From assembly GCA_006503475.1 (NCBI GenBank), contig RSEH01000206.1, positions 1-64,000 of the forward strand: a stretch of DNA of 64,000 bases. Reading direction: 5' to 3'. Of this stretch, positions 34,502 to 60,493 are shown one piece after another (the stretch's first letter is position 1; each line of letters begins with the position of its first letter). This stretch comes from Stentor roeselii. Its lineage: Eukaryota; Ciliophora; Heterotrichea; Heterotrichida; Stentoridae. A program made the position numbers and the translations under genes. The notes beneath the pieces are model-generated. The model saw only the letters and a program-made list of their open reading frames with translations, was not told the DNA's origin and ran no database searches.

Positions 34502-34514
34502 AAATAGTTATTTA

Positions 34515-36863
34515 TTATAAGTGTTGGATTTTGAAGGTGAACTGATGAGTTAATTGGTCGTATTTTATGAATTCTGTCCCGTTTTCTTCACATTTTATTC
34601 GCAGGTCGATCTCGACTTTCCCTGGGTTCTTGCGAGGCTTGATGTTGTATAAAGTCACGAATGCTGGGCGGTTTAGTCTTTGATCTGAAATCTCTCCATT
34701 TGGAAAGCCGATGAACTGTTGGCTTTTAAAGCAGATGAACTGGTCGAAGTCGATTCCCACTACATCGACTTTTCCTTCAAAAACGATTTTTCCGAAGACG
34801 TTTTCTAATACAAGATTTTCCACGTTTTTTAATTGTTTCAAGCTCATTCTTTTCATCTGCTCGAGATCAGGAGTTACTTTTAAACATTGAGTGACAGGCA
34901 GGTGATGCTCTTCAGGGTATTCTTCAGTTTGAGTTTCGAAGAAAAGTTTAGAATTTGAATCAATTCCGAGATTAGCAACAGTTTCATATCCTTGAAGGAC
35001 ACGATCATTAAATTTCATTACAAAAAGTTTATTTGTATTCAGAGCTTGCATGACTTTTTCCCTGATATCAGAAACGGTGCTATATAAAAAAGCACTTATT
35101 TTAAGTTTCTCCTCAACATCTGAATCATAAACAATGACTAAAAACTCAATCGGCTCTTCTTTAATCTCCACCATCTTCGGTTGAATCACAGTTCCAACAT
35201 CTTGAATATTTCTCTTAAACTTAATCTTTTTACTTTTTTCCCTTTTCACAAAACAAAGCCCTTCATCACGTTTAAACCTGGAAAAAAGCCCAACAGGTTC
35301 ATTAATATTAAAATTTTCCTCTCTTTTCGACCCAAGAGGCACAGGTGCTTTAGGAGCTTTACGAGAAGCTAAAGATGAAACTTGAGGAGTTGTTTCCTTT
35401 ATCTTAAATTCATTCACTAGTTTTTCAGGGTCTTCATCAGGGAATATCCAAGTAAGTCCATGAGGGTCTTTGAAAGGGTTGACCAGAACTGGGAAGTCCG
35501 GCTTTGCAGTGTTCGTTAAAGTACTGGTCATGTTGTTGTACATGCTTCCTCCGAAATTCGGCATTTGCCCGCTGTCTGAGGGCCAAACTGACGACTGTCT
35601 GTAGAAGCCGCTATGAAGGTAGGGGTTTGAAGACGATTGGAAAAATCCAGAGGGTTGACTGTAAAATGATGGAGTTACACTTGTGAACTGATTAGGTCGC
35701 ATTTGATTTGAATAAAAACTTGACTGGTTAAATGCATTTGATTGGTGGGAAGGATTCGACCAAGATGAAGGAGATGGACCTACTTGGCTTGTAGTGAAAA
35801 ATGAACTTCCATTTGATGGACCGTTGAATGAGTTTGAGGAAAATCCAGAACCGTTGAATGGATTTGGTTGAAATCCTGATGATGAATTGTTGAATGGATT
35901 TGATTGAAGACTTGAAGAGCCAGTCATGAATGGATTTGATGAGGACCCATTGGCAAATGGATTTGATTGGAATCCGGAGGATGTACTCTGGGGAGAGATT
36001 GATGAGGCAAAGGGATTCATTTGAGTTGAACTGGAATAGGGCAAGGCTTGAGGTAAACTTGATGTGAAGGAATTGGAAGTTGAGGAATTTCCTGTTGTCA
36101 ACGGGTTGAATGGGTTGGAATTCAATGATTGGCTGGAAAAAGGATTTGATTGACTTGGCTGGGTTAGGTTCTGGGGTCTTATTGAACTGCTTGGAAAACC
36201 TGAGCTATAACCTCCAGAAGAACCATTAAATGATCCTTGTCCTGAAGAGACATTAAAAGGATTATTACCTGAAGTATTAAATCCATTCCCCTGACTGGTT
36301 TGAGAAAAAGGGTTACCCGCATATCCAGTGCCACTATTTCCAGGATTAAAACTTCCTGCGAATGAGTTATTCACAGGAGTGTTTGGTTTAAAAGGGTTAT
36401 TTCCTTGATTCACATTAGAAAATGAGTTATTTGCGTAGTTATTCTGACTTTGATACCCGGGTCTATTGAAAGAATTTCCGCTGCTGAAAGAGTTTGACTG
36501 GTTTCCAAGGCCTGAATTGTTATTAGAAAAAGACTGTCCAGAACTAAAACCACTTGAAGTGCCTCCAAATCCATTATTTGAAGAAAAACCGGAAGAGTAA
36601 TTTGAAGGGCGGGTTTGCCAGGTCTGACTGTTGCCAATAGCTGCACCGGTATAGGAGTACTTGTCGGGAGTCGCTGAATTCGGGCCAAAAGTGTTAAAAC
36701 CTTGTCTTTTTTTCATTTGTCTGAAGCGGATTTCTTCAAGGGACTCGGATTGATTTTCATGAACTGCGTTGATGTTAAATACGGTTATTGATGATGAGTC
36801 TTCCATGAGTTTGAAAAAATTCATTGAACTTGGTTGGGTATAACTAGAATTACTCCAGTTCAT
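34515..36863 (-). CDS. NUP98: Nup98-like nucleoporin with NPF repeats, ubiquitin-like insert and C-terminal autopeptidase fold
   Basis: A 782-aa protein. Residues ~50-460 are a low-complexity Ser/Asn/Gly/Phe repeat domain. The dominant unit is NPF (SNPF, GNPF, NNPF), with SxF and GF units; GLFG is absent. Residues ~555-630 (FLVIVYDSDVEEKLKISAF ... VLQGYETVANLGIDSNSKLFF) look like a ubiquitin-like fold. Residues ~635-782 match the Nup98 autopeptidase domain: FGKIVFEGKVDVVGIDFDQ, LNRPAFVTLYNI, and EFIKYDQLTHQFTFKIQHL. The chain stops at HL, exactly where animal Nup98-Nup96 is cut after H-F. No Nup96 part follows, so no self-cleavage is expected. It is a phenylalanine-repeat pore-barrier protein anchored by its C-terminal fold. 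Confidence 0.88.
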   Translation of the reverse strand: MNWSNSSYTQPSSMNFFKLMEDSSSITVFNINAVHENQSESLEEIRFRQMKKRQGFNTFGPNSATPDKYSYTGAAIGNSQTWQTRPSNYSSGFSSNNGFGGTSSGFSSGQSFSNNNSGLGNQSNSFSSGNSFNRPGYQSQNNYANNSFSNVNQGNNPFKPNTPVNNSFAGSFNPGNSGTGYAGNPFSQTSQGNGFNTSGNNPFNVSSGQGSFNGSSGGYSSGFPSSSIRPQNLTQPSQSNPFSSQSLNSNPFNPLTTGNSSTSNSFTSSLPQALPYSSSTQMNPFASSISPQSTSSGFQSNPFANGSSSNPFMTGSSSLQSNPFNNSSSGFQPNPFNGSGFSSNSFNGPSNGSSFFTTSQVGPSPSSWSNPSHQSNAFNQSSFYSNQMRPNQFTSVTPSFYSQPSGFFQSSSNPYLHSGFYRQSSVWPSDSGQMPNFGGSMYNNMTSTLTNTAKPDFPVLVNPFKDPHGLTWIFPDEDPEKLVNEFKIKETTPQVSSLASRKAPKAPVPLGSKREENFNINEPVGLFSRFKRDEGLCFVKREKSKKIKFKRNIQDVGTVIQPKMVEIKEEPIEFLVIVYDSDVEEKLKISAFLYSTVSDIREKVMQALNTNKLFVMKFNDRVLQGYETVANLGIDSNSKLFFETQTEEYPEEHHLPVTQCLKVTPDLEQMKRMSLKQLKNVENLVLENVFGKIVFEGKVDVVGIDFDQFICFKSQQFIGFPNGEISDQRLNRPAFVTLYNIKPRKNPGKVEIDLRIKCEENGTEFIKYDQLTHQFTFKIQHL

Positions 36864-38191: not shown

Positions 38192-38363
38192 TCTGGATAA
38201 GGATTTAAATAAAAGTTTATAAAATTCTTTAGGGAATAGTTTAAATTATTTGTACATTTAGTCAACTCTAATGATGATTCTTCAATCATACACTCCTTCA
38301 TCATTCAAAAATCCATCATAAAGAATGATATTTAAAATCTCTGTAAAACTTCATCCAATAAAT

Positions 38364-41300
38364 ATGGGAAACTCATCTTCTGAACTCTACCAAAAAATCT
38401 TAACCTTCTCCGACCTCGAATTACAAAAATTCCTCCATGAAGATGAAATCCTATTAACCCCAATCCCTGCACCTCTTTCATCAATCCTGGAATCTCAAAA
38501 GCAATCAAATCCAAACTTAATATTCGAAAACCCATCATCTTCAGAGACCTTAAACTCATCAATAGAAGACTTGAAACTCTGTTTCTCATCAAAAAAATCC
38601 TCAAAACTCAAAGAAAAGTACGAAAGTCTTCTTCACTCCTTACAACTAGATCAAAATTCTCTACTTTGTTCACTTCCAGACCCTTCATTCGAGGTCCCTT
38701 TAAAATTGATTTCATATTCTCTGAGCAAACAAAAGTCTCTTCTACAGTCCGAAGAGCGATTACGTCGAAAGCTCGAATCTTTAAAAATTAAGTCCTCAAC
38801 TAATCAAGATTCAATTCCCTCTGAACCTTTACCCGCAGTAACAGAAGCCGGGGTAAACTTTTGCATCCGATCAGTGGTCGACATGATAGACTTACTCTCA
38901 GGAGTCGATGCAAGTATTTCCTTAAAAGTTTTAAAGAACCTTAACCAAATCCTATCAGAACTTCCTTTAAACTCACTAACTTCCTCTAAAAACTTCAGTT
39001 CAAACCTACAAAAACTTGATGATTTTCTATTGAACCTCGAATTAAAAACCCCTTCTTCCGCCTTACTAAGTCTCTTTTCATTATCTCTAGCATCAGGTAA
39101 TCTCGGTAGAACTCTTTGGATAGCTTTAAAGTTGTATGAAACTCGCTTTTTAACCAAATCCGATGCAAAAAATTTCCAAGAAACCTGCAAAAAACTAAAA
39201 AATTTCGAAGGAAAATCTTTCGGAAAACGTGTGTGGATGACCTGGAGTCACCACCGTTCAGCAGGAGACGTGATTTCAACGAACCAGTCACTTACCGCTG
39301 GCAGAAATGAAAACTCTGGTTGGGGCTCGATGGTCACAGAGCAAAGTTTAAAGACAGGCTTTCATTATTTCGAAATGAAAATCGACAGAAGAAGCAACAG
39401 CTCGAGTCTTGTTGGACTTGCAGGAAGGACTTTCGCGAGCTTTAATAAAAAGGCTTGCATTAGTCAATGTTTCACTTTACATGCTGATGGAGATGTTTTT
39501 ATTAATGAGGCAAATGCTGGAAAAGCTTTCAAGTTCGTTGAAGGAGACCGCGTCGGATTGTTTGTTGATATGGAAGCGAAATGTTTAACGTTTTATTTGA
39601 ATGGAGTTAAACAGATCAAACCGCCTTTTTACCCTTTGCCTGATGAAGTTGTGTTGATTGCTTGTTTTGGAACTTCGGGACATTTGGTTACGATTGTTAA
39701 TGATCCTCAACTTCCTGATGACCTTAAATTAACACTTGGACCTTTGGCTAAGTTGTTTGAGAAACCTTTTGTTGAGAAGAAGGATGACGTGATTGAAAAA
39801 AAGGAGAATTTTGGGAATTTTGATGATTTTTTTGGATTTCCTTTTTTTGCAGAAAGAATTTTAGAACATAAAGTACTGAATAAGGATTATTTGAATGAAA
39901 AAGAAATTTCTGTTGTTGTTTTAGCATCATTGGATCGGATTGTTAGTCATTATTTCAGAATTTTTGACTTGCAAAGTATGAAGAAAGAGGTTAAGACTTG
40001 TTTAGATATTCCTTGTTTCGAACCGCTTGCTGTTGAAATCAGCGAAAATGTTATGAAAACGCTTTTGGGGATTCTTGAAAGGGTTTTCAAAGATATCTCT
40101 CAGCTGAACTGGCAAGATATCGACTCTAGTCTTACTATTTGGACTTGTTTAAGTACCTTAAGGATACTAAAAGCTCACTTTTTTGTTATCGATTACTTGA
40201 AAATCGATGGAATTACTTTTGGGATGACTCCAGAGCAAGCAAGTTGTTATTGTGTCCTTCTCGAGCAGCTTATAAATATCGATCTTCATGATTTTCCAGC
40301 ACAAGATGCAGAAAAAGCCTTAAACGAGATAAAAAAAGAGGCTTCCCTTGCTTTTTACTATGGTTTTGACCTGTTTTACGCTTCAACTTCCTCTAAACTT
40401 CAATTTCTTCTAACCCGCCTTCACCTTTTTTCTGAAGAAGCGAAACAACAAGATGTTTACAAATCAATAACCTTAGACCTTCTCCATCCTGTTAACTTTT
40501 CAGTTATCTGCACAGAAGTTTCTCCTGATTTCGAGGAAAATTTCTCATTAATATCAGAAAAAATCCTGGAAATTATTAAAAACTTTCTAGAAACTAAAGA
40601 AATACCAAAAAACAGCGAAATCTTCCTGATTGCCTTGAATTCGATTCACTCGACACTTCTTTCAAAATCCAGTCGCAACGATTTCAAAGGCCTTTGGAAG
40701 AGTATTTTAATGAGATACTCTCTGAAACTACTAAATGTATTAAAGGGGGTTTTTGAGTCAACTCCTGAAAACTTTTCAAGAATTGCGAAAAGTTCTGTTT
40801 TTTCTTGCTTTGTTGTTTTTTTTTATAATCTTTCATTTGCGAAACCAGATCTTACTGAAATCTCAGCGATTCTTGAAGGCACTGCCTCAGTCATCAAGTT
40901 AATGAATCGAGATGGGTTTAGAGACTACAAAGGAGAGTGCTGGAATTTTGAAGATTTCAACACTATTCATCCTTTTTCAGGGCAGGTTCCGGAAAAAGGA
41001 ATAAAAACTCAAGGCCAGTCTAAATTTGAACTTGAATTTAATCAACTCTCTTCAACTGCAACTGAAAAGAATTTGCTAAAAATTTGGAAATTTACGGATA
41101 AAAAAGTATTGGTTGGCAGTTACTGTTTGAATGGCTTTCCACAAAAAGTTACTTTTGAGGGTTCTCAGATGCTTTTTGAGTACTGCCCTGAAGACCCTGA
41201 AAAGGAAAGCTGGGGCTGGGAAATACGAATAAAATATGTCTCCATCGACTTAGAATCCCAGTCTAACTTCAAAAACCTGCTGCTAAGTCTATCATTTTTA

Positions 41301-44300
41301 TCAATATTTTACTTGAAAACGTTAGTTTCTCTAGATTTTTCTTCAGAATCTTCTGAAATTTCTAAATTTTTATCAAATCCGATGATACGTTTCACCTTTC
41401 CATCAAAGATTAACTCAATACCAAAAAAATTTGTTATTGAAGATCTTTTAAAATTAAGTGAATTATCTTTTTCCCCATCAGGACCAGTTCAATTTGACGA
41501 CATTTCTTCTGAAGCCAGCCAAGCGAGATTATCAGAAATTTCATTTACCAAGACATCAGACTCGATTCAAGACTTCATTGAAAGTTTTACCCAGGTAACC
41601 CTGCCAGACCTTGACAACTCTTTATTCTCCAAGTGGACTAGTGAAGACGATGCAGTAAAAGAAACCTGGGCCTGGTTAAAAGAACTTTCAATCACCCCAG
41701 GACCAAACTTTTCCATCGGTGGAAGTGATTTAGACAATTTAGAAAAAGCTGTTTTTTTCACTTTTTCAGTGATTTTCGGGTTCTCAGAGCTCTTAAAAAA
41801 CCTAAAAAACCGCCCTGAACTCCCTTCTTCCTTTAAACTCCTCGTCAAACAAGCCTGCAACATCCGGGTCTGGGCTCAGCACTTCAAACAGACCTTAATC
41901 GATGAAGGAAACGAAAAAACCTATTCAGAAATCTCAGAAGAAGTCCTGAAAAAGTCGATGTTTTTCATCGCTGCTGGAAAAATCGACTTGGAAACCCAGG
42001 ATTTTTGGAGTTTTCGAGAAAAAATCAAGAATTTCTTAGGAAGGACTGAAAAAGAAGAAGAAAGGTCAGGGGACAGAAAAATCGACCTGGCCAAAGCTCT
42101 TGAAAGGGTCGGAAAATCTGTTCAAAGTGTGGGATTTGGAGGAGATGACCAGAAAAATGACTTGAATGTTGTGAAAACTGTTTATAAATGCTTGATTGAC
42201 TTTTATAGTTCGAAGATATCTGCAGAGGTAATTTTAAGTTCTGTTAATTCTCGAAGAAAACTTGCTGTGGCTCGACTGATTGGAATTGAATTGTTTCATA
42301 AGATGCTTTCGACCTTCTCAGCATCTAGAGACGAGATCTCCAATTGGACAATGCGTTTTTTTTCAGAGTCGTTCAAGTCGCAGCCTGGGAAAAAACATTA
42401 TCTTTGCTCTTTAGAAGGAATCGAGCTACATCTACAAAAGCTTCTAAGATTGTCATTATTTTCTTTACAAAAACATTTATTTTCTATTCTTTCTTCAACT
42501 CAACCCTTGACCTTATCAAGATCTCAACTTTTTTTTTACTTATCTATATTGGACAATCTAGTTTTTCCAATAAAAGCTGAGGACATTTTGAGTCTTTCAT
42601 CATTCAACCTCCACGAATATCTTTCTTTTCTTATATCAACAGCGCAGGGACAGGCTTTACTGTTTCAGCCAACAGGTAAGAAAGATCTGTCGAAAATAAT
42701 AACAGGACTTGAAGTGCTAACAGAATATCCTGGACCTGGTTTTGAAACTGTTTGTCTTACTTCTGACCAGTCGGGATGTGAAAGTCTTGATTTCTTTGAA
42801 AGTAAAAAACTTTGGCTTAAAATTGAAAGAAATGAAAAAAATGAACTCTTGGATCCGATTAGTGAAATTTTTACTGGAAATGAATGTCCTGATGGCTTTG
42901 AACCTGTTCAAGGAAGTATCGCGGAATCAGGTGAAGATTTATTTATTTTTGTGAAAAGAACTCCATTGATACCTGGAAAGAAGTTTTTAACTGGTTTAAA
43001 AGTTTTGGAAGAAAGACCTGTTGTTTTTAAGTGCTTTTTTGTGACTTTTGAAGAAATATTGGTTAAGGAAAATTATGAAAATGAAGAAGATGATAAGTTA
43101 CTTGGGTTGTTGATTAGAAAAATGGCTTGGGTTTTGTTTAAGTTTTTGTCGTATTCTATTATTGAGAATAGCCTCAATAGTAGCATATCCAATCAAAAAG
43201 CACAAAAGATTTTAGTTAATGTTCTGCTTGATTCAGTTAAATCGTTTGAATTTAAAACTTTACAACAAGAATTGAATACTGAAGAAAATTCTCCTTCTTT
43301 GTTTGAAATCTGTTCTGGAGAAAAGTGGATAAGAGAGACTTTCAAAGGAATTCTTATGAGTCAAAATCCGATGAAACTCTGGATTCACGAGTTTAAACGA
43401 CTTTTCATTAAACAAGATGAAGATCAGTTGCTTTATGAACTAATTCAAGAGTTTATCATCGACTTAGATCCTTGCATGTCAGGAGTGGTCGAAACTGAGA
43501 TAATTGAAGGTTTTGAAGATTGGACAAATAGTGAAGGAAAAATCGACTTTTTCGTATTTTTAAATTCAACTATCAAGAAAAACTACGCTGATCTCTGCCC
43601 TGATCTGCTATCCCATCCTTTTATGAAAATTCTTCCTAGAGACATGCAAGAAGCTCAATTTTTACTATCAGAAGATCCAGAAACATTGACTAAAGTTCTC
43701 TTAAAATACGGAAACTTCTCATCAAGCCAATCGTTCTCATTATATCTAAACCTTCTTCTTCAACAAGAGTCTCAAGTATTTAAAGGTAGAATACCCCCTG
43801 CCTTCCTTCCTGAAGGGACTCCTCAAAACTTCTTAAACGACTCAGGTGAATTCGATTTAATAAAATCAATCTCATCAATTCTTGATGATCCTTCAAAATT
43901 TCCAGTTTTTTATTCAGAACTTGAACCTTTTACTATCTTTTTACGGCAAATCAAATTGTTTAATGATGCATCTTGCAATAATGAAAAAACTTTATCTTCA
44001 ATTCAATTCTTTTCTGAGTCTATTTTATGGATTTTGATGCAATCTCTTCCAGCACCTTGCATGAAAAAGATCTTAAGTCAAGAAATCGAGCTTTTTATCA
44101 AACTTTCTCTTTTAAGTCCAGGGTTTTTAAGTCAATTTTCCTTTAAAGTCCTTTCCGAGGTGCTGCCTTCTCATCATTCACCTCATTCTTTAAAATCAAT
44201 TTGGCAAAGATTAGACTTTTTCGAGTTAAAATTCACTTTTTTAGATCCTTCTGATTGGATTCGCACCTTTTTCTTAATAATCGGATTTGCAGGACTTTGG

Positions 44301-47300
44301 GTGGCCAGGACTGATTATTCCTGGTTTTCTAATTTCGGATGCGACGTAAAATTAATAAACAGACTCAACAAGCTCTGCTCTGAAAGCTGTTTATTGCTCG
44401 GTAGTCTCTGCTCTAGTCCAAGATGGAAAACTTTCATCATCTCAAGTCTTTGTTCTAGTTTAATTGATCCTGATTCTTTACAAGTCATGATTGGAGGTCT
44501 GAGATTTCTGAGTAGATGCCTTGGGACCAATGATCTTTTAGACTGCTGGGTTTTCGAATGGACTAAAATTAAACAATCTGGTTCAGTTCCAGCTGGAGTT
44601 GTGATTAGTTCTGATAACGAGAAAGACTTCGCCACTCTTTACAATGAAGAAACTGACTCTTTTCTTGAAATCGGAATTGAAAAACTGGAAAATATTGAAC
44701 CTGCCTTTTGTTTAGATCTGTCATCGCTGGATCCCACCCTTAAAGAAAAAATTGTCAATAAATTGATTCAATTGGTGAAAAGTCAGCAACTAAGAAAATG
44801 GATTGAAAATTCAGGATTTTCTTATGTTTCTATTGTTGAAAACATCTGTTGTTCACTTATTTTTCGAGTAATTTCTGGAATTTTTCAAGATCTCAGCGAT
44901 TTTAAAAGAATTGAACACGAAATTGTGATATTTCTGGTTAAAAAGTTGAAAAGTATCAAAAGTAAGGCAGTGAAAGAATCAGGAATCAGAATTCAAGAGC
45001 TGTTGAAAGTTCTGAGTTCTAGACTTGTCAAGCGAATTTCTTCAGAAAATAAAGAATTTAATGAAAAAGCTGAAATTCAAGGAAAAATCAGGTCTTTTCA
45101 AATTTCTGCAGCAGATGAAGCAAGATTAATTTCAGGCATGAATGAAAATTTGCAGATAACAGTAGCTACTTTACAGTCATTAAACTTCACCTTCTCAGAT
45201 ATTTACTCAGCGATACAGCTGGGAATCACAGGTACTGAAGAAATCATGACTTTTCTAGCAAGTCAAGAAGATAAGCTGAAAAATTCCTTCGAGATTCAAG
45301 AAGAAAAAGACAAATCCTTGATTTACAAGCTCCAAAAAACCCATTCAAAATTTTCAATAAAAGACCCAAGTTGTTTAGGCCATTTCGAAATAAGTCCATC
45401 AGGTCAGATGTCGATTCAAACTTCACATTCTTTAAAATCTCCTCTTTTCCTTTACAACACCCTTTCATCTCTGGTGACTCATTCTTTTTCATCAAGTAAA
45501 AATTTGGAAATTTTCATTAAAGTTTCTTTACTTGAAAATTTACTGTCAGGTTTATTTTTCTTCATTTTTGGAAAATTGAAAATCCGAATTGACAGTCGAT
45601 TCGATGACTGCTCACTTTATGCGAATGGGGATTATATCGGCTCTGTTGAAAAAAGAAAGGACTTTGTTTTCAAGATTTCTTTGGAAGGACAGTCTTTTGA
45701 CGACCTTTTCATCCAACTTCGAGACTCGCTTGTTTTTTTCAATTTGACTGACTCGAGTGTTTTTAATGGACTTTCCTTCGGCAGGTTCGGAATCGGCCTG
45801 GCTGAAGGAGCTGGAATTGTTTTAAACGACTTGGAAATCCGAGTTTTGAATGAAAAAATTGATGTGGATGAATGGCTTTCAACTGCTGAACCTTTTATCC
45901 CCAGTCCAATTGAGAGGTCGTCTTTTACAATTGAAAACAAGGCAGAGGTCACAGAAGCCAGCAAAGCAAGACTGAAACTTTTAGCAGTTTCAGAAGAGGA
46001 CCTGCGAACAGTCAGTAGTTTTCATGACTTTCAGACAGTGCTTAAAGCGACTCTGCCCAAAATCCCTTCGTTTCTTGCTGACGAGGCTAGGGGGAATTAC
46101 TTTCCTGTCATAGACGTGCAGCTCTTTGATACCCTTGAGGAAGTCCCTGAGGGTTTCACAGTAGTTCGAACTGTTTTCAAAGACCAAAAACTGTTCCCAC
46201 TAGTTAACTCTGGCGAAAACTTCACGAAACTACTTCCAGGCCAGAGAGTTTTATGCATAAAACAGGGCAAAACCAGCTCTACAAGTGAAAAATACGTCGT
46301 TGGACTAAGTCTTGTTGACAACTTCGCGAATTCCTCAGGAGTTGACCTGGGCAGTCTCTTCAAAGAAAGCGAAAAGACTTGTAAAGTATGGGTCAATAAG
46401 ATAAGCAGGTCTAAACTTGCAGGGATTTTACCTTTAAGCGATGTTTTTATCTTAGAAGTTGAAAATGGACTGCGACCTCAGCTGCCTCTTGGTTATGAAA
46501 TTGTTGAAGTTGATGGAAAACTTGTAAATCTCGCACCTGGTGCAGGTTTTTTTTATTTATGCTTCTCGAGACTTACTTTTATTTTTAATATGCCTTTGGT
46601 TCCTCTCGTGTTTTCAAAGAGAAGCGTGCCGGATAAAGGAATGACTTCCGAAATGAGGAAACCGCCGTTGGCAGGAAGGTCAAAAAAACTGGCAAAAGCT
46701 GTTAAAGACTACCCAAGACTCTCTACTCTTGAATTACTCAGTCAAGTGCAGGCTATTCACTACTCCAACAAGCATCTCTCTATGATTCTTTTGTTGAAAA
46801 AAATTGTAAAAGCTAGTCCTGATGTTTTTTCTTCTGTTTTTTTAAACTCTTCAAGAGTTTTCAGGAAGTTTTTCAAGATTTTTGCAGAAGATCTTGAATT
46901 TTTAAGGGTTTCAATTGAAAAAGTGCTTCTTCAGGATTCAAAACAAGAGAAAAGCAGGATTTTTTTCATGTTCGTTGAAATGATGACCTGTTTATCCTTC
47001 CAACCAATTCAAGATCCAGGTCTCGATGAGCAGCTTGTCGATTTAAAACTTCAAAACGACGAGAAAAACGATGAAGAAATCGCGATCCCTGGCGCTGACG
47101 GTTTACGATTAGAATTTCTAGAAGTTCGCATAGAAAAATTATCAGATCTTTATTTTTACCGTCATAAAAACCGTATCGGTCTTCTACAGAAGTCAATAAA
47201 AGGAAAAATAAATGATTTTCAAGTACCTGGGGAAAGACTTTTCATGCATTTCGAGTCAAGCAGCTCTTCTCAAAAAGTTTTAAAATTCCGGGTGGTCCCT

Positions 47301-50300
47301 CTGCGCTTCCCAGGACTTCCCAAGCTGATGCTTCCAGACCACACAAGTGTCCTTCAAAGCAGGTGGCTTTTAAAGTGCCTTTTAAAGCACAGTTCAGAAC
47401 TTTTTGAATTTTTAAGCCTTCCTCACTTCCAGGCAGGAGTTTTTTCATTTTTTCATAATACAAGTGACGAAGAGCTCAGACTGGACCTGCTTCAGTTGTT
47501 GGAAAAATCATTGAGTTTGAGGACTTCGAGTTTTAGCTTATCTCTGAATTCTTTTTTGCATCATGAACTGTGCCAGATACGACAGGCAGATAAAAGAAAT
47601 AGTCAAATAACGACACTTCAACAAAAGTTAATATCTTTTTCGTGTGCGTCTTTTAATGACTCGCTGGTTAAACCTGAAGCAATTAATGAAAAATGGCTCC
47701 TGGAGACTCATAATTTTTACAAATTTATGCATGGAATGGTTCACAAGAGTCGGTTTCAAGATGCGCAGAAGGTTATTTTGTTTCTTAATATCAAAAAAAT
47801 TCCTTTGGTTAAGGTTAGGGAAAGTTTTCATCCGTATTCGAAGAAGAGTTTAAAACAGCTGGTTAAGATTGAAGGAGCGGCATTGCTTGAAATTAAAATT
47901 GACCCTCGCTGTGAACTAGACGTGGAGGACTCAATGTTATTTTCTTACGACCTTGAAGGAGAAAAGAGGATCGAGGCTAAAAAATCAATAGAAAATCAAG
48001 AAGCTTTTTGGTCAAGTAAATTCAAATGGACCGATGTCGTGTTTTCAAACAACAACTTATCAATAACTCGCACCAATTCAAGTGGCTGGGGATCAGCTCT
48101 TTGGTCTGAAGTATATTCAAAAGGAAAAATCAAACTTTCCTTTAAAATCGACAACGATGGTAAATCCGATTACCTCTACATCGGAATTTTGAAAGCTGAT
48201 GGAAACTACAAATTAAATGAAGTAGTCAACAGCGACAACTCTCACGAGCTTTGGACCTGGAAAATCACTGGCGAGTTCCACCGAAAAGGATCCCGTCAAT
48301 CAATTCCAGAAGGCAAGTACCGAACAGGAGACATTGTAAGTCTATTGCTAAATTTCACAGATCTTTCAATGACATGTCTTAAAAACGGAATCGAAGTTTT
48401 CAAGTTCCTTCCGATAAGTAAAGAAGTAATTCCGATTATTTCTTTCGGAGGGTCGAACCAGCATGTGACAGCGCTTCCTGTAGAAAACTTGAGAAACGAC
48501 CAAGAAAACCTAATCTGCAAAAAACTTCTAGTTCAGGGAGACTCGTTCTTTTTTCATTTTCCTGTAAGTTCTGGTCTTTTCTCACCGAAGCTGTTCTGGA
48601 AGCATAACTTTGAGAAGACTGTATTTTTTTCTAGTGACTTAAAAATCGCTAAAAGTCTTCCAGGCCTTGATGAAAAAGGATTGGTTTTGAATATTGGAGG
48701 AGCTTTCAAGGCTGGTAAGCATTTTTGCCAGATAGCTGCAAGGACTTCAAATGAGTCTACAGTGGCTTTTGCCTTGATTGCTGAAAATAGCGAAAATGAG
48801 GAAAAAAATGAGAAAAATGCATTGGTTTGGTTTGAAAGTAATGGAAAATTGTTGATTCAAGGAAATGAATACGAGATTAAGAGCTTTGGAAACATGGAGA
48901 AAGTTAGTATTTTCTTTGATTATGACGCGGGAGATGTAGGGTTGTTTAAAGATCATCAACAACTGGTCTTTACTAAGGTAAAGGTCGATGTTTCCAGCTA
49001 TTCTTTCGCTTTTAAGTTCAAATCGCCTGGACAGCTTGCAAAGATTATAACGAATCCTGAAGTTCCTCCTTCTTTAAAAGCATTTTTAACAAGTTCTCTT
49101 TGGACTTCTGGAAGTCAGGGATCTAGCTGGGGGTACAAATTTTCAGTAATTCCTCATTTCTGGGGATCTTCAGTGACTCAACTAATTGAAACTCTATCAA
49201 GTTCATACCGAGAAGATTACTTAAAATTCTCTGAAACTTACAAAACTTCAGTTCCAAGGCAAGTAGAAGAGTTTTTAGTCGAATTCATCGACGAGCACTG
49301 CCAAAAATCAAAAACCGACCCACTTTTATTCTCATTTCTAAAACCCGGTTTAAAAGAAGACCTTCAAAATTTCCCTTCACTATCATCAATCCCAAGTGAA
49401 ATATTAGAATCCCATTTAAATTCCCTTCAAAAATTCAACAAATCTCTTGAAAAATACCTGCCTCTTATCTCTTTAACCCTTTCAGACCTATCCGAAGAGT
49501 CTTTCTCCAAAAAAATCGAAGACTCTTTGCAAAGACTAGTCTTCTCAAGCGGTCCCTATATTTTTAATTCAGTTAAATCAACCTTTTTCTCCTCATCATT
49601 AACTTCTTCAGCATCCGAAGGAAAGTTAGAAGTTTCAATCGACAGGACAAAGGCCTTGAAGCTAAAAACATCAGGAAAATCAGACAGTCAAGGAATGGTA
49701 TCAGTCTTCGGGCAGGTCTTCCGAAGTTTAAGTCAAGTTTCAAGCAGTCTTCTCCGAAGTAATGAAAGAAGTTTCAAAGTTCTCTTCCGTGGAGAAGGAG
49801 CAGTTGACTTAGGAGGTCCTTACAATGAAACTTTAAGCTGCATGTGTGACGAGCTGATGTCGAGGACTTTGAATCTTTTCATTCCCACTCCGAACCACGT
49901 GCACAACACTGGAGAGAACCGCGAGTCATGGACTATCAACCCTTCAGCGACTTCTAAACTCGCTTTAGACATGTTTGAGTTCTTCGGAAAATTTATTGGA
50001 TTCGCCATTCGCACTAATATCAACCTCAGCTTAACTCTTCCTCCTATCTTCTGGAAAAGACTCTTAATGCAAAAGACTTGCCTGAATGACTTGAAAGCTG
50101 TCGATGAATGCTGCTGGCAGATGATCAAAGACCTGAAAAATATGAAAAATATGAAAAATGGCTCAGAAGAACTAGGAAAAATCGAACATCTCTTCTTTGA
50201 AGTTCATGATTCTAGTGGGAAACTTGTCGAGTTGCAAGAAAATGGAAGGATTTTAAAGGTTGAACTTGAAAATTTGAATAAGTTTGTAAAACTGCTGAAA

Positions 50301-50798
50301 AGACTCAGACTTGAAGAAGCGGAATTACAATTTAGAAGGATTAGAAAAGGACTTAGTGCGATTTTACCTTTTGATATGTTGTGTTTGTTCACTGGGAAAC
50401 AAGTTGAAGATATGGTCTGTGGAACTGCTGACTTTGATGTTGATGTGTTGAGAGCTGTCACGGAGTATCAGGGATTTGACGCTGAAGGACCTGTGATTAA
50501 AGGTTTTTGGCAGGTTTTAAAGGAAATGACGGCGAAAGACAAAAGCTTGTTTTTGAGGTTTGTGTCTGGAAGGTCACGTCTGCCTTTAAATCAGGAATAT
50601 AGGAAGTTCAAAATCTTTTTACTTAAGAAAAGTGGAAACCCTGACCATTATCTGCCAGTTGCACATACTTGCTTCTTTCAAATTGATCTGCCGCAGTACT
50701 CGAGTAAAGAAATTTTGAAGGAAAAAATGTTTTATGCGATTAGACATTGCCGGATTATTGACCTTGATGCTATTGCTGGCGGAGGATGGGCAGATTAA
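38364..50798 (+). CDS. Giant HECT-type E3 ubiquitin ligase (about 4,144 aa, single exon)
   Basis: The start is taken at MGNSSSELY, a good myristoylation-type N-terminus in an AATATGG context. An in-frame ATG at 38325 would add 13 residues. Visible modules: SPRY/B30.2 at ~290-450 (SGWGSMVTEQSLKTGFHYFEM ... GDRVGLFVDME); a UBA-like helix triplet at ~2250-2300 (ITVATLQSLNFTFSDIYSAIQL); beta-prism segments at ~1445-1550 and ~2575-2735 resembling MABP repeats (P-x-G-F/Y-x-x-V ... F-F-Y-L-C-F-S-R); a second SPRY at ~3210-3370 and a weaker third at ~3440-3565; HECT at ~3790-4144 (RGEGAVDLGGPYNETLS, EFFGKFIGFAIRT). The catalytic Cys is ~4103 in PVAHTCFFQIDLPQYSS. The HECT tail is nearest in look to HERC-type ligases. 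The middle is probably helical repeat. Confidence 0.93.
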   Translation: MGNSSSELYQKILTFSDLELQKFLHEDEILLTPIPAPLSSILESQKQSNPNLIFENPSSSETLNSSIEDLKLCFSSKKSSKLKEKYESLLHSLQLDQNSLLCSLPDPSFEVPLKLISYSLSKQKSLLQSEERLRRKLESLKIKSSTNQDSIPSEPLPAVTEAGVNFCIRSVVDMIDLLSGVDASISLKVLKNLNQILSELPLNSLTSSKNFSSNLQKLDDFLLNLELKTPSSALLSLFSLSLASGNLGRTLWIALKLYETRFLTKSDAKNFQETCKKLKNFEGKSFGKRVWMTWSHHRSAGDVISTNQSLTAGRNENSGWGSMVTEQSLKTGFHYFEMKIDRRSNSSSLVGLAGRTFASFNKKACISQCFTLHADGDVFINEANAGKAFKFVEGDRVGLFVDMEAKCLTFYLNGVKQIKPPFYPLPDEVVLIACFGTSGHLVTIVNDPQLPDDLKLTLGPLAKLFEKPFVEKKDDVIEKKENFGNFDDFFGFPFFAERILEHKVLNKDYLNEKEISVVVLASLDRIVSHYFRIFDLQSMKKEVKTCLDIPCFEPLAVEISENVMKTLLGILERVFKDISQLNWQDIDSSLTIWTCLSTLRILKAHFFVIDYLKIDGITFGMTPEQASCYCVLLEQLINIDLHDFPAQDAEKALNEIKKEASLAFYYGFDLFYASTSSKLQFLLTRLHLFSEEAKQQDVYKSITLDLLHPVNFSVICTEVSPDFEENFSLISEKILEIIKNFLETKEIPKNSEIFLIALNSIHSTLLSKSSRNDFKGLWKSILMRYSLKLLNVLKGVFESTPENFSRIAKSSVFSCFVVFFYNLSFAKPDLTEISAILEGTASVIKLMNRDGFRDYKGECWNFEDFNTIHPFSGQVPEKGIKTQGQSKFELEFNQLSSTATEKNLLKIWKFTDKKVLVGSYCLNGFPQKVTFEGSQMLFEYCPEDPEKESWGWEIRIKYVSIDLESQSNFKNLLLSLSFLSIFYLKTLVSLDFSSESSEISKFLSNPMIRFTFPSKINSIPKKFVIEDLLKLSELSFSPSGPVQFDDISSEASQARLSEISFTKTSDSIQDFIESFTQVTLPDLDNSLFSKWTSEDDAVKETWAWLKELSITPGPNFSIGGSDLDNLEKAVFFTFSVIFGFSELLKNLKNRPELPSSFKLLVKQACNIRVWAQHFKQTLIDEGNEKTYSEISEEVLKKSMFFIAAGKIDLETQDFWSFREKIKNFLGRTEKEEERSGDRKIDLAKALERVGKSVQSVGFGGDDQKNDLNVVKTVYKCLIDFYSSKISAEVILSSVNSRRKLAVARLIGIELFHKMLSTFSASRDEISNWTMRFFSESFKSQPGKKHYLCSLEGIELHLQKLLRLSLFSLQKHLFSILSSTQPLTLSRSQLFFYLSILDNLVFPIKAEDILSLSSFNLHEYLSFLISTAQGQALLFQPTGKKDLSKIITGLEVLTEYPGPGFETVCLTSDQSGCESLDFFESKKLWLKIERNEKNELLDPISEIFTGNECPDGFEPVQGSIAESGEDLFIFVKRTPLIPGKKFLTGLKVLEERPVVFKCFFVTFEEILVKENYENEEDDKLLGLLIRKMAWVLFKFLSYSIIENSLNSSISNQKAQKILVNVLLDSVKSFEFKTLQQELNTEENSPSLFEICSGEKWIRETFKGILMSQNPMKLWIHEFKRLFIKQDEDQLLYELIQEFIIDLDPCMSGVVETEIIEGFEDWTNSEGKIDFFVFLNSTIKKNYADLCPDLLSHPFMKILPRDMQEAQFLLSEDPETLTKVLLKYGNFSSSQSFSLYLNLLLQQESQVFKGRIPPAFLPEGTPQNFLNDSGEFDLIKSISSILDDPSKFPVFYSELEPFTIFLRQIKLFNDASCNNEKTLSSIQFFSESILWILMQSLPAPCMKKILSQEIELFIKLSLLSPGFLSQFSFKVLSEVLPSHHSPHSLKSIWQRLDFFELKFTFLDPSDWIRTFFLIIGFAGLWVARTDYSWFSNFGCDVKLINRLNKLCSESCLLLGSLCSSPRWKTFIISSLCSSLIDPDSLQVMIGGLRFLSRCLGTNDLLDCWVFEWTKIKQSGSVPAGVVISSDNEKDFATLYNEETDSFLEIGIEKLENIEPAFCLDLSSLDPTLKEKIVNKLIQLVKSQQLRKWIENSGFSYVSIVENICCSLIFRVISGIFQDLSDFKRIEHEIVIFLVKKLKSIKSKAVKESGIRIQELLKVLSSRLVKRISSENKEFNEKAEIQGKIRSFQISAADEARLISGMNENLQITVATLQSLNFTFSDIYSAIQLGITGTEEIMTFLASQEDKLKNSFEIQEEKDKSLIYKLQKTHSKFSIKDPSCLGHFEISPSGQMSIQTSHSLKSPLFLYNTLSSLVTHSFSSSKNLEIFIKVSLLENLLSGLFFFIFGKLKIRIDSRFDDCSLYANGDYIGSVEKRKDFVFKISLEGQSFDDLFIQLRDSLVFFNLTDSSVFNGLSFGRFGIGLAEGAGIVLNDLEIRVLNEKIDVDEWLSTAEPFIPSPIERSSFTIENKAEVTEASKARLKLLAVSEEDLRTVSSFHDFQTVLKATLPKIPSFLADEARGNYFPVIDVQLFDTLEEVPEGFTVVRTVFKDQKLFPLVNSGENFTKLLPGQRVLCIKQGKTSSTSEKYVVGLSLVDNFANSSGVDLGSLFKESEKTCKVWVNKISRSKLAGILPLSDVFILEVENGLRPQLPLGYEIVEVDGKLVNLAPGAGFFYLCFSRLTFIFNMPLVPLVFSKRSVPDKGMTSEMRKPPLAGRSKKLAKAVKDYPRLSTLELLSQVQAIHYSNKHLSMILLLKKIVKASPDVFSSVFLNSSRVFRKFFKIFAEDLEFLRVSIEKVLLQDSKQEKSRIFFMFVEMMTCLSFQPIQDPGLDEQLVDLKLQNDEKNDEEIAIPGADGLRLEFLEVRIEKLSDLYFYRHKNRIGLLQKSIKGKINDFQVPGERLFMHFESSSSSQKVLKFRVVPLRFPGLPKLMLPDHTSVLQSRWLLKCLLKHSSELFEFLSLPHFQAGVFSFFHNTSDEELRLDLLQLLEKSLSLRTSSFSLSLNSFLHHELCQIRQADKRNSQITTLQQKLISFSCASFNDSLVKPEAINEKWLLETHNFYKFMHGMVHKSRFQDAQKVILFLNIKKIPLVKVRESFHPYSKKSLKQLVKIEGAALLEIKIDPRCELDVEDSMLFSYDLEGEKRIEAKKSIENQEAFWSSKFKWTDVVFSNNNLSITRTNSSGWGSALWSEVYSKGKIKLSFKIDNDGKSDYLYIGILKADGNYKLNEVVNSDNSHELWTWKITGEFHRKGSRQSIPEGKYRTGDIVSLLLNFTDLSMTCLKNGIEVFKFLPISKEVIPIISFGGSNQHVTALPVENLRNDQENLICKKLLVQGDSFFFHFPVSSGLFSPKLFWKHNFEKTVFFSSDLKIAKSLPGLDEKGLVLNIGGAFKAGKHFCQIAARTSNESTVAFALIAENSENEEKNEKNALVWFESNGKLLIQGNEYEIKSFGNMEKVSIFFDYDAGDVGLFKDHQQLVFTKVKVDVSSYSFAFKFKSPGQLAKIITNPEVPPSLKAFLTSSLWTSGSQGSSWGYKFSVIPHFWGSSVTQLIETLSSSYREDYLKFSETYKTSVPRQVEEFLVEFIDEHCQKSKTDPLLFSFLKPGLKEDLQNFPSLSSIPSEILESHLNSLQKFNKSLEKYLPLISLTLSDLSEESFSKKIEDSLQRLVFSSGPYIFNSVKSTFFSSSLTSSASEGKLEVSIDRTKALKLKTSGKSDSQGMVSVFGQVFRSLSQVSSSLLRSNERSFKVLFRGEGAVDLGGPYNETLSCMCDELMSRTLNLFIPTPNHVHNTGENRESWTINPSATSKLALDMFEFFGKFIGFAIRTNINLSLTLPPIFWKRLLMQKTCLNDLKAVDECCWQMIKDLKNMKNMKNGSEELGKIEHLFFEVHDSSGKLVELQENGRILKVELENLNKFVKLLKRLRLEEAELQFRRIRKGLSAILPFDMLCLFTGKQVEDMVCGTADFDVDVLRAVTEYQGFDAEGPVIKGFWQVLKEMTAKDKSLFLRFVSGRSRLPLNQEYRKFKIFLLKKSGNPDHYLPVAHTCFFQIDLPQYSSKEILKEKMFYAIRHCRIIDLDAIAGGGWAD

Positions 50799-58103: not shown

Positions 58104-59198
58104 CTACTTCTGGTTCGACTGGTCCAGAAAACTCGAGTCAGACACCAAAGGAAAAAGATTAGTCTTACAAACTGGGCAAAAGGGAATATTCAAGTTGTTT
58201 CTCACCCAGTTTTCAATGCAACTCGTGTGAAAAATATGCTTACAAGGCGTTTTTCTCACAAGTCCATCAACAATAAATCTGTTTAAAACTCACTCATCAA
58301 AGCAAATAGGACAAGCAGGTTCTCCAACTTCTTGAAGACTTTTCTCGTACTTGATAACAGGGAGAACTTGATTTAAATTTTCATCTGAGATCTGAATTAA
58401 AGAGTTTTCTGGAATCACTTGATAAATCCTTGAACGTGCTTGGGTCCTTCTTCGGTTTCGCAGTCTCCAGGCTCTTGAGAACTTGAAACAGCAGAAGACG
58501 CAGCAGGAGCAACAAAGAAATAAAACAACTGAGACTGTGATGATCGCGACGATGCTTTCAATGTTAAGTTCACTTTTCTGACTTCCACATTTCCAAGAGA
58601 TTTCAAGGTTTCCGTAGTAGTTTTGATTAGTTCCAGTGAAATAAACAATGTTCAAAAAATCGTCTTTCATCCAGACCCCTTTTTTCCAGTTATTTTTTAA
58701 AGACTCGCCTTTATACTGGGAAAAGTCGTTGATTGAGGATGGAAGACGATAAGAAAGAACCAGAAGAGACCCGGCAGGCTGTTTAAAGAATACAAATGAA
58801 CGTTTTATTTGGAGAAAAAGTGAAAGATCTGTCGAAGTTGAAAGAGCCTCACGCATGTCTAACACCCACTCGCATAAACAACCGCCTGGCATCGGCTGGG
58901 ACAAGCTGAAAAGACCTGAGCTTGACTTCGTCATTTGCACTCGGCAGACCTCAGTTTTAAATGAACAGTCTGGAAAGGAAGAGACCTCCGAGCAGAGCAC
59001 TGAAGAGTTCCCTTCAAGACAGGAACTACAGGAATTATCGCAGGTTAAGTCTGATTCTAAACAAATAGAATTTTTGCAGATGTTGCTGAGTTTTTATTAC
59101 TGGAGCCATAGTTCTTCACCTTTGAAACACTTCGTGCAAGGCTGGGAACAAGAAAGAGTTTGATGGATTATAAGGAACAAATGGATCAGCTTTATTAT
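58104..59198 (-). CDS. Transmembrane RING-H2 protein with Cys-rich ectodomain (two introns; start unresolved)
   Basis: Minus-strand exons ~59198-59101, 59085-58294 and 58278-58104 join in frame after removal of GTAATAAAAACTCAG and GTGAGTTTTAAACAG. The product reads: hydrophobic signal-like LIHLFLIIHQTLS, a Cys-rich segment (CSQPCTKCFKGEE ... CDNSCSSCLEG), a long ectodomain, one TM span (IVAIITVSVVLFLCCSCCVFCC), a basic cytosolic part, and a complete RING-H2 (CPICFDE ... CKHIFHTSCIENW ... CPVC). The architecture is a membrane E3 ligase. No in-frame ATG precedes the signal-like segment. The only nearby ATG (around 59221) is in another frame and no 15-16-nt intron joins them, so the 5' end here is approximate. 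Confidence 0.72.
58279..58293 (-). other. 15-nt intron (membrane RING gene, last)
   Basis: GTGAGTTTTAAACAG on the minus strand lies in the middle of the first half of the RING. Its removal links CPICFDE to FIVDGLVRKTPCKHIFH and so completes the eight zinc ligands. Confidence 0.95.
59086..59100 (-). other. 15-nt intron (membrane RING gene, first resolved)
   Basis: GTAATAAAAACTCAG on the minus strand. Its removal clears an in-frame TAA and extends the Cys-rich ectodomain upstream to CTKCFKGEELWLHN. Confidence 0.8.
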
Positions 59199-59248: not shown

Positions 59249-60493
59249 ATGGAAGGAAATCATTTGGAAAATCTTGGAATTCATGAAATTTTAGAAGTAT
59301 TCGCTCGTGGAAATAAAGTGGCTGGAGAGGAAAGTGAAGTCATTGTAAAAACTTTTGAAAATTTTGCAGTAAAGCTTACAAAAAAACAACATAATTACCA
59401 ATATGATTTTTTAACAAATTATAGGAAAATTAACTTTCCTAATGTTATTAAAATATACAATGTTGTTGAACTGGAAAATTGTTTTTATACGAAAATGGAA
59501 AAACTTTCAGAAGTTTCTCAAGGATTTAAGTCGTATAATGAAGCTTTTCGATTTTTAAAAGATTGTATCAATGGATTGTTTGATTTACAGAAAAATGAAA
59601 TCGCTCATAATGATATAAAAAATAAAAATATTATGAAAACAGATGACGGTGTGTTTAAAATCATCGATTTGGATTATATTACAGTTGACAAGCACGACAA
59701 AAACGGTTTTAAAAATTCAAATTCAAATATTTTTACTGGAACTCCTGGATATTATAGTCCTGAACGTTTGAAACAGAGTGAATTATATAATTTAGGCATA
59801 GAATTTAAGATAAATGCATATAAAAGTGATGTATATTCACTCGGAATCAGTTTTTTGAATCTTTTATTCTTTACTTTTAATGGATATTATTGTAATTTAC
59901 CTCTAGATAATCAAAATATTGAGGATCTGATTAATAATTTACCAGAGCCTTACAGTAATTTTAGGGAAATCATTACAGAAATGTTGAATGATAATCCTGA
60001 TCAAAGAGTAGATGCCATAGATCTCTATTATCAATTCCATGAAAAATTTGAAACTTGTCAGAAACTCTCAGGCTCCTGCTTTCTATGTAAATCTGAAAAT
60101 ACCCCTGAAAATGATTTATTTATTCTAGAAAATCGAGGAGTCTGCTGCAGAGACTGCATAAAAATAGTCCATTATCAATTTAAAAAGTAATAAAAATCTA
60201 GGAACGAGCTGTACTAAACACTTAGTGAATGCTCTGAATGTTCTAACATAAACTGTGCTCATCTCTTTTGCTTCATCTGCAAGTCATTAACCCACAACAG
60301 TTCCTGTGCTGAGCAAGAAGGAAGATCAATGATGAAAATCAAATGTCTTCAAAAGAACTGCACATCTTACCTCCTTCCAACAATCTCTTACTTCAAAAAA
60401 TGTGAGGAAGACCACTACACCTGCATCGTCTGTTTCGGGGGTCTATGGCTTTCTCATGAAGTCTGCTCAAAATTCTATTCACTCGGTTATTAA
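59249..60493 (+). CDS. Divergent protein kinase fused to an RBR-type zinc finger; 9-nt micro-exon
   Basis: Exons 59249-60186, 60202-60210 and 60226-60493 join in frame to 404 aa. Kinase fold at ~20-270: the ATP Lys in FAVKLTKK, catalytic loop IAHNDIKNKNIM (HRD altered to HND, Asp kept), IIDLDY in place of DFG (Asp kept), GTPGYYSPERL, and DVYSLGISFLNLL. There is no Gly-rich loop, so activity is uncertain. The C-terminus has Cys pairs CFLC and CCRDC. Then comes ECSECSNINCAHLFCFICKSLTHNSSC, an exact C-x2-C-x4-C-x4-C-x2-C-x4-H-x4-C IBR/RING2-type pattern, and then a second set (CLQKNC ... CIVC ... HEVC). Without splicing the protein would end before the zinc fingers. Function may be ubiquitin-linked; this is inference. 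Confidence 0.88.
60187..60201 (+). other. 15-nt intron (kinase-RBR gene, first)
   Basis: GTAATAAAAATCTAG contains the in-frame TAA TAA that ends the unspliced reading frame. Exon 1 ends two bases into a codon. Confidence 0.9.
60211..60225 (+). other. 15-nt intron (kinase-RBR gene, second)
   Basis: GTACTAAACACTTAG follows the 9-nt exon GAACGAGCT. Together the two introns leave only nine coding bases between them. Confidence 0.9.

Follow-up and report, generated by a model that had tools for sequence, protein, structure and literature searches.

A probable 9-nt exon between two 15-nt introns

The kinase gene at positions 59249-60493 of the window, the 64,000-nt stretch of Stentor roeselii genomic DNA analysed here, very likely codes for protein in exons of 938, 9 and 268 nt, interrupted by two spliceosomal introns of the ordinary 15-nt kind, with GTA at the start, YAG at the end and an A at position 10; these would be removed one by one by a fixed ruler, intron 2 being probably old and intron 1 probably a later insertion. 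Exon 1 (59249-60186, on the forward strand like the rest of the gene) encodes the Pfam PF00069 kinase domain, at residues 34-256, together with the first cluster of Cys residues in the tail. From the ATG at 59249 the frame is open for 313 codons and then meets a TAA (60188-60190) within GTAATAAAAATCTAG, the putative intron 1 (60187-60201, phase 2), whose candidate branch-point A lies at 60196 (position 10). Exon 2, GAACGAGCT (60202-60210), stands between both 15-nt introns and is followed by GTACTAAACACTTAG, the putative intron 2 (60211-60225, again phase 2), with a candidate branch-point A at 60220 (position 10). Exon 3 (60226-60493) comprises 268 nt including the stop codon TAA (60491-60493) and encodes a Cys/His-rich tail, putatively a divergent IBR-like half-RING. 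Removal of both 15-mers gives a spliced CDS of 1215 nt, that is, 404 amino acids plus stop. A preliminary description of this DNA had ended the frame at the TAA in GTAATAAAAATCTAG, obtained the 9-nt and 268-nt exons by removing GTAATAAAAATCTAG and GTACTAAACACTTAG, and given a total length divisible by three, and its coordinates and length were reproduced.

Both putative introns are 15 nt long, start with GT, end with AG and have an A at position 10. Exon 2, with 9 nt in the gene model, is a coding internal exon of no more than 15 nt: it completes K313, encodes N314 and E315 and provides the first two bases of L316. If intron 1 were retained, the frame would run into TAA TAA and the predicted product would end after residue 313; if only intron 2 were retained, an in-frame TAA would end it after residue 317. 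In both cases most of the zinc tail would be lost, as expected from the earlier proposal that failed splicing would yield a kinase lacking its zinc fingers, and a tail-less kinase arising by intron retention is possible.

The length of exon 2 is a multiple of three, so that the frame is also kept when the 39-nt block 60187-60225 is cut as one piece, in which case the nine bases would belong to the intron; this block, too, has a GTA start and a TAG end. Since both cuts keep the frame, frame alone does not tell a pair of 15-nt introns from a single 39-nt one. A single 39-nt intron would, however, have to skip two complete 15-nt introns, and we consider it very unlikely.

Intron length and motif across the genome

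The genome was scanned for introns over 273.5 kb, by collecting GT..AG pieces of 9-45 nt whose removal connects two open frames of 60 codons or more and whose retention brings in a stop. Coding-score thresholds tried first gave 0 candidates at every length, and these open-frame criteria were used instead. When a positive codon score was required on each side, 13 candidates of 15 nt remained, compared with 0-5 for every other length. The unscored GT..AG counts had no peak at 15 nt (24, compared with up to 26 at 19 nt); the unscored GTA..AG counts peaked at 15 nt, with 18 candidates compared with at most 7 at any other length. The codon scores at the junctions of the query gene were weak (-2.2 at the end of exon 1 and 0.0 at the start of exon 3), and since they are not positive, the query itself would fail the scored scan. 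In the scored GTA..AG class, 39 nt was the second most frequent length (4 candidates, after 11 at 15 nt), which favors a single 39-nt intron in the query. Three of these four, however, use the same donor as a 15-nt candidate, of which they are shadows, the query is not among the four, and all GT..AG pieces of 39 nt showed no clear excess (11, with 4 scored) over a TG..GA control (9, with 4 scored). In essence, the 273.5-kb scan gave no sign of a class of 39-nt introns.

An A at position 10 was found in 20 of all 24 15-nt scan candidates and in 14/14 of those with the form GTA...YAG, compared with 56 of 141 of all GTA-N9-YAG 15-mers. It was also found in 10/10 tabulated introns of sister genes of the query, whose models had been searched with a pattern that demands this A. 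The motif table combines 14 of the 24 scan candidates with 10 of 11 sister introns; it omits three candidates in a kinase cluster (L010), which were counted as sisters, and seven without a GTA start or a YAG end, of which three have an A at position 10. The eleventh sister intron, in C213b, came from the pattern demanding A at position 10. At position 9 intron 1 has an A, where 22 of the 24 tabulated introns have C or T. According to an excerpt of PMC9505925, 8173 of 8806 Stentor introns are 15 nt long and 8005 have the branch A at position 10; these figures and the scan peak at 15 nt agree with the preliminary description, in which Stentor introns were given as 15-16 nt. The query introns resemble the 15-16-nt introns of Stentor and Blepharisma as described in parts of PMC9505925, PMC9942806 and PMC11441545 in being 15 nt long with an A at position 10, in beginning with GTA and ending with AG, and in their small number per gene.

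To gauge how rare such a frame is, a pool of 273.5 kb of genome DNA, window included, was used, which holds 333 stop-ended open frames of at least 100 codons. A double rescue was defined as the removal of two motif-matching 15-nt pieces, 1-31 nt apart, that extends the frame by at least 80 codons. It occurred in one of the 333 frames, the query alone, while rescue by a single intron was seen 13 times. With random placement, a double rescue came up once in 200,000, possibly the query itself, the window being part of the pool. The double-intron arrangement is more than chance.

Stop codons act as stops

If TAA, and also TAG and TGA, were read as amino acids, the query frame would be open and no introns would be needed. 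Some ciliates do reassign stop codons. In Blepharisma, UGA is read as Trp, as stated in a section of PMC9942806. We searched the S. roeselii genome (44.39 Mb in 522 contigs) with the query protein and obtained 96 kinase matches, of which 86 have no inner stop, the other 10 including all three stop types. Stop-to-stop frames of at least 300 codons end in TAA (51), TAG (26) or TGA (8). Such usage of all three codons, together with the 86 kinase matches free of inner stops, indicates that stops act as stops, and it fits the standard code given for Stentor in part of PMC9505925 better than the UGA = Trp code of Blepharisma. Moreover, the stops near sister tails sit in 15-nt motif-bearing pieces, except in C150d, the tail of which is broken. 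We therefore give stop reassignment at this gene almost no credence, and the intron-containing model is preferred.

Three units of CCCTAACA had 220 forward and 327 reverse matches in the genome and 0 in a reversed control, and among the matches listed, all were at contig ends. This unit was reported as the telomere repeat of Blepharisma in a portion of PMC9942806.

The kinase domain and its zinc tail

The kinase part of the query is clear (PF00069, E 7.9e-19). Its catalytic region contains H-N-D-I-K-N-K-N and D-L-D, which we take to be altered HRD and DFG motifs, the key Asp, Lys and Asn apparently being present. The kinase is the sole Pfam domain of the query protein, and no Pfam match to IBR or RING was found in its tail; of the kinase-RBR fusion proposed earlier, the kinase stands and the RBR assignment is weaker. 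The zinc module, described as C-x2-C-x4-C-x4-C-x2-C-x4-H followed by a spacing of x4, has all the earlier spacings, but the last one is x3. Pfam was run on 6 of 16 sister tails, and IBR was matched at E < 0.001 in three of the six. The scores were 24.9 bits in C266, 23.8 in C138, 20.5 in C171 and 11.3 (E 0.37) in C150c, so that C266 alone passed the curated cut-off (24.3 bits), and C516 and C507 gave no IBR match in Pfam. The best PDB match of a profile made from sister tails was RING finger protein 31 (2ct7) at E 0.044, by itself not significant. The tail shares the C-x2-C-x4-H-x(3,4)-C end with IBR/RBR modules (PF01485; 2ct7). RBR ligases have the order RING1-IBR-RING2 with a catalytic Cys, and the query tail is without an IBR or RING match. 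The tail would thus appear to be a divergent IBR-like half-RING, and the protein not an RBR ligase.

Sister genes and the age of the two introns

Among the kinase matches, 17 sister genes were modelled, with L008, L021 and L022 left out. A kinase followed by a Cys-rich tail was found in 16 of the 17, the exception being C150d with its broken tail; the pairing of the two parts, which had been called unusual, is the common layout of this family within this genome. A single phase-2 15-nt intron was present in 11 sisters and no intron in the modelled frame of the other 6; at some loci the intron was picked by its place among several 15- and 16-nt candidates. With respect to intron 2 of the query, five of the 11 sister introns are in the same alignment column and five within two columns, while the intron of C11b is 56 columns off, in a gappy stretch. 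No counterpart of intron 1 was found in the 17 modelled sister genes. Since the place of intron 2 is common to sisters and that of intron 1 occurs in none, we infer that intron 2 is probably the older and intron 1 probably gained. On this comparison of sequences, intron 2 is probably old in the kinase family, and intron 1 would be a later gain, probably inserted nine bases upstream of intron 2 with no loss of coding residues.

Of the 16 sister tails, all but C11a and C11b went into the alignment and the tail profile, 14 in total. The query residues before intron 2, F-K-K-N-E-L, align beside F-E-E-D-K-L, F-E-V-D-K-L and F-K-D-D-S-L of sisters, with a one-column gap preceding the last four or five sister residues. 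The residues of exon 2 thus form part of a variable linker, alignable with the sister residues just before their intron but not identical to them. By hand count, 13 residues separate the last Cys of exon 1 from the residue at intron 2 in the double-spliced query, and the corresponding distance in the 11 sisters is 11-17, with eight at 11-13. With the whole 39-nt block cut out instead, the distance from the Cys to the junction would fall to 10 residues (hand count), just under the range of the sisters.

Two other origins of intron 1 were considered and are not supported. For tandem duplication of intron 2, the two introns are identical at 11 of 15 positions, which is within the range of 6-14 seen in pairwise comparison of 25 introns. 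Intronisation of coding sequence lacks support because the coding length is not shortened compared to the sisters.

A tree of the kinase part was made with 22 rows, including 4 outside kinases and also C150d, which was kept out of the alignment on account of its broken tail. It places the query within an 11-row group (96/99), and intron-bearing genes occur both inside and outside this group. The branch of the query (3.3) is the longest in the family, and its exact place in the tree is unsure. Gene decay is possible on such a branch. Intron 1 might accordingly be unspliced, the gene ending at the TAA at 60188 with the tail as a decaying remnant, or its retention might serve as a regulated switch to a tail-less kinase; the long branch, the weak codon scores, the altered kinase motifs and the immediate stops given by retained introns fit such an account. 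However, the frame of exon 3 is intact, and seven Cys/His columns are identical in the query and the 14 sister tails. When the profile of these 14 tails, query excluded, was run against 954 window frames, exon 3 matched at E 4.4e-10 and the next best frame at 0.094. Intron 1 also bears the splice motif. We consider an unspliced intron 1 unlikely, and the model with both introns removed is retained.

One locus of the family, L010 (C150:66000-75500), holds five kinase genes, of which three have a single intron; C150c has no intron, and C150d is the gene with the broken tail.

Other probable tiny exons in this genome

The whole genome was searched with a pattern in which the first intron starts with GTAA and two motif introns lie 1-31 nt apart. 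It gave 65 matches, compared with 20 for the reversed pattern, and a small set of short repeats, often close to contig ends, accounts for many of the 65. Eight matches had a spacing of 4-14 nt, and seven were examined (C508 was left out). Both introns need removal in four of the seven: the query, with an exon of 9 nt, C57 and C247, with 10 nt each, and C36, with 6 nt, in which a single 36-nt intron would keep the frame too. In C29 and C170 the second intron alone needs removal, and C77 has no clear need of either. At the same spacing, first introns starting with GTAT and GTAC gave 6 and 2 raw pattern matches (controls 2 and 4); the first-intron patterns covered GTAA, GTAT and GTAC, with GTAG and GTG outside.

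The two genes with 10-nt exons match Pfam CDP-OH_P_transf (C57, 2.5e-9; C247, 1.1e-10), and spliced C247 aligned with choline/ethanolaminephosphotransferase 1 (8gyw) at E 3.6e-19 with no gap at either junction. The 10-nt exon of C247, TCCGAACCTA, completes A and then encodes P, N and L of APNLIT. The genome has six matches to the choline/ethanolaminephosphotransferase-like (CEPT-like) protein, three with inner stops and three without. The third with stops, C48, has the same 15-nt/10-nt/15-nt layout around the exon AGCGAATACA; it escaped the pattern, as its second intron begins with GTG. An intron-free relative, C111 (L059), one of the three matches with no inner stop, reads WLAPNLVT straight through, and the residues of the CEPT-like 10-nt exon, (A)PNL, are kept in relatives. 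Ten is not a multiple of three, and the frame would be lost if 40 nt were removed as one intron, so that inclusion of the CEPT-like microexon is hard to avoid. The same layout in three genes, in which one long intron is impossible without a frame shift, also argues against a single 39-nt intron in the query. Overall, the sister genes and the unrelated genes suggest that tiny exons are real in this genome.

Six more matches, five spaced by 3 nt and one by 15 nt, were examined and rejected as microexons. Chains of 15-mers spaced by 3 nt (L052, L053 and L054; L055-L057) have the look of short tandem repeats, often with an 18-nt unit, and no double-splice frame was obtained from them. Tandem repeats of this kind, for instance TGTAACCTACAACGAAGA in L053, imitate 15-nt introns separated by 3-nt exons (L052-L055 and other listed places). 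Copies of these intron-mimicking repeats are often near contig ends and possibly belong to a repeat-bearing subtelomeric gene family.

Proposed removal of the two introns

The preliminary description held that the spliceosome defines the 9-nt exon. The two 15-nt introns and the exon between them stand, but exon definition is not needed, as intron definition with a fixed length would explain the arrangement. The splicing machine would measure each intron as a fixed 15-nt unit, with the branch A at position 10 and five bases from there to the 3' end. The two introns would be taken out in turn, since two assembled complexes would scarcely fit on 39 nt at the same time, and the intron left after the first removal would be an ordinary one of 15 nt. 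An intron spliced from the outer sites would, by contrast, be 39 nt long with its branch A far from the 5' site. If introns and not exons are what is recognised, exon length would be irrelevant and a microexon would be included by default. Both the ruler and the order of removal are our interpretation of the gene models.

We lean slightly towards a more general reading, according to which heterotrich splicing would use a fixed-length intron ruler that is blind to exons, so that two introns and an exon fit into 39-40 nt. New 15-nt introns could then land beside old ones and leave 6-10-nt exons that are always included; one such exon would predate the split of three phospholipid-synthesis genes, and the one in the kinase gene would be younger.

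Whether introns or exons are recognised in splicing, and the minimum size of each, is a long-standing question, and a clean natural test of how the splicing machine finds both is available here. Complexes could probably not sit side by side on two 15-nt introns separated by 9-10 nt, and such loci would therefore allow a direct test of the order of removal and of the joining of outer sites. The kinase locus would in addition show a likely gain of a 15-nt intron beside an older one. Tiny introns have reportedly been described for Nyctotherus.

Microexons as such are already known. In plants, where they are defined as exons of 1-15 nt in an excerpt of PMC8831610, they are likewise coding exons of a few nt, the bases of which are carried in one large exon in some species or copies; according to the same excerpt, their small size means that under intron definition a splicing complex could not bind the introns on either side simultaneously. 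The cases described here differ from them in that both flanking introns are 15 nt, which gives 39-40 nt for the two introns and the exon together. Such exons may well escape gene predictors and read mappers, as part of PMC8831610 reports for plant microexons. The smallest constitutive exon known as of 2015 was 6 nt, as stated in a passage of PMC4674806, a paper on a single-nucleotide exon of Arabidopsis. Because intron size is constant, it has been argued that Stentor may have no exon skipping (PMC9505925, in part), and the word microexon has 0 occurrences in the text of that source. In the literature searched, which did not include the main Stentor genome paper, no report of heterotrich exons of 6-10 nt was found; a search for Stentor together with microexon found no paper, and in one Tetrahymena paper with the word microexon it refers to a mapper option. 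As judged from the gene models, what appears to be new is the pair of 15-nt introns around a 6-10-nt exon, one case being common to three gene copies and one probably younger.

Neighbouring genes in the window

A RING-like gene, so labelled from its motif, lies on the reverse strand at 58104-59000 of the window and has a 15-nt intron, GTGAGTTTTAAACAG, at 58279-58293. Removal of GTGAGTTTTAAACAG by eye joins CPICFDE to FIVDGLVRKTPCKHIFHTSC. A forward-strand gene at 31847-34700 has two 15-nt introns (33590-33604 and 34262-34276), and its spliced product of 874 amino acids had no Pfam match at E 0.01. An uninterrupted open frame of 4157 codons extends over 38325-50798 on the forward strand.
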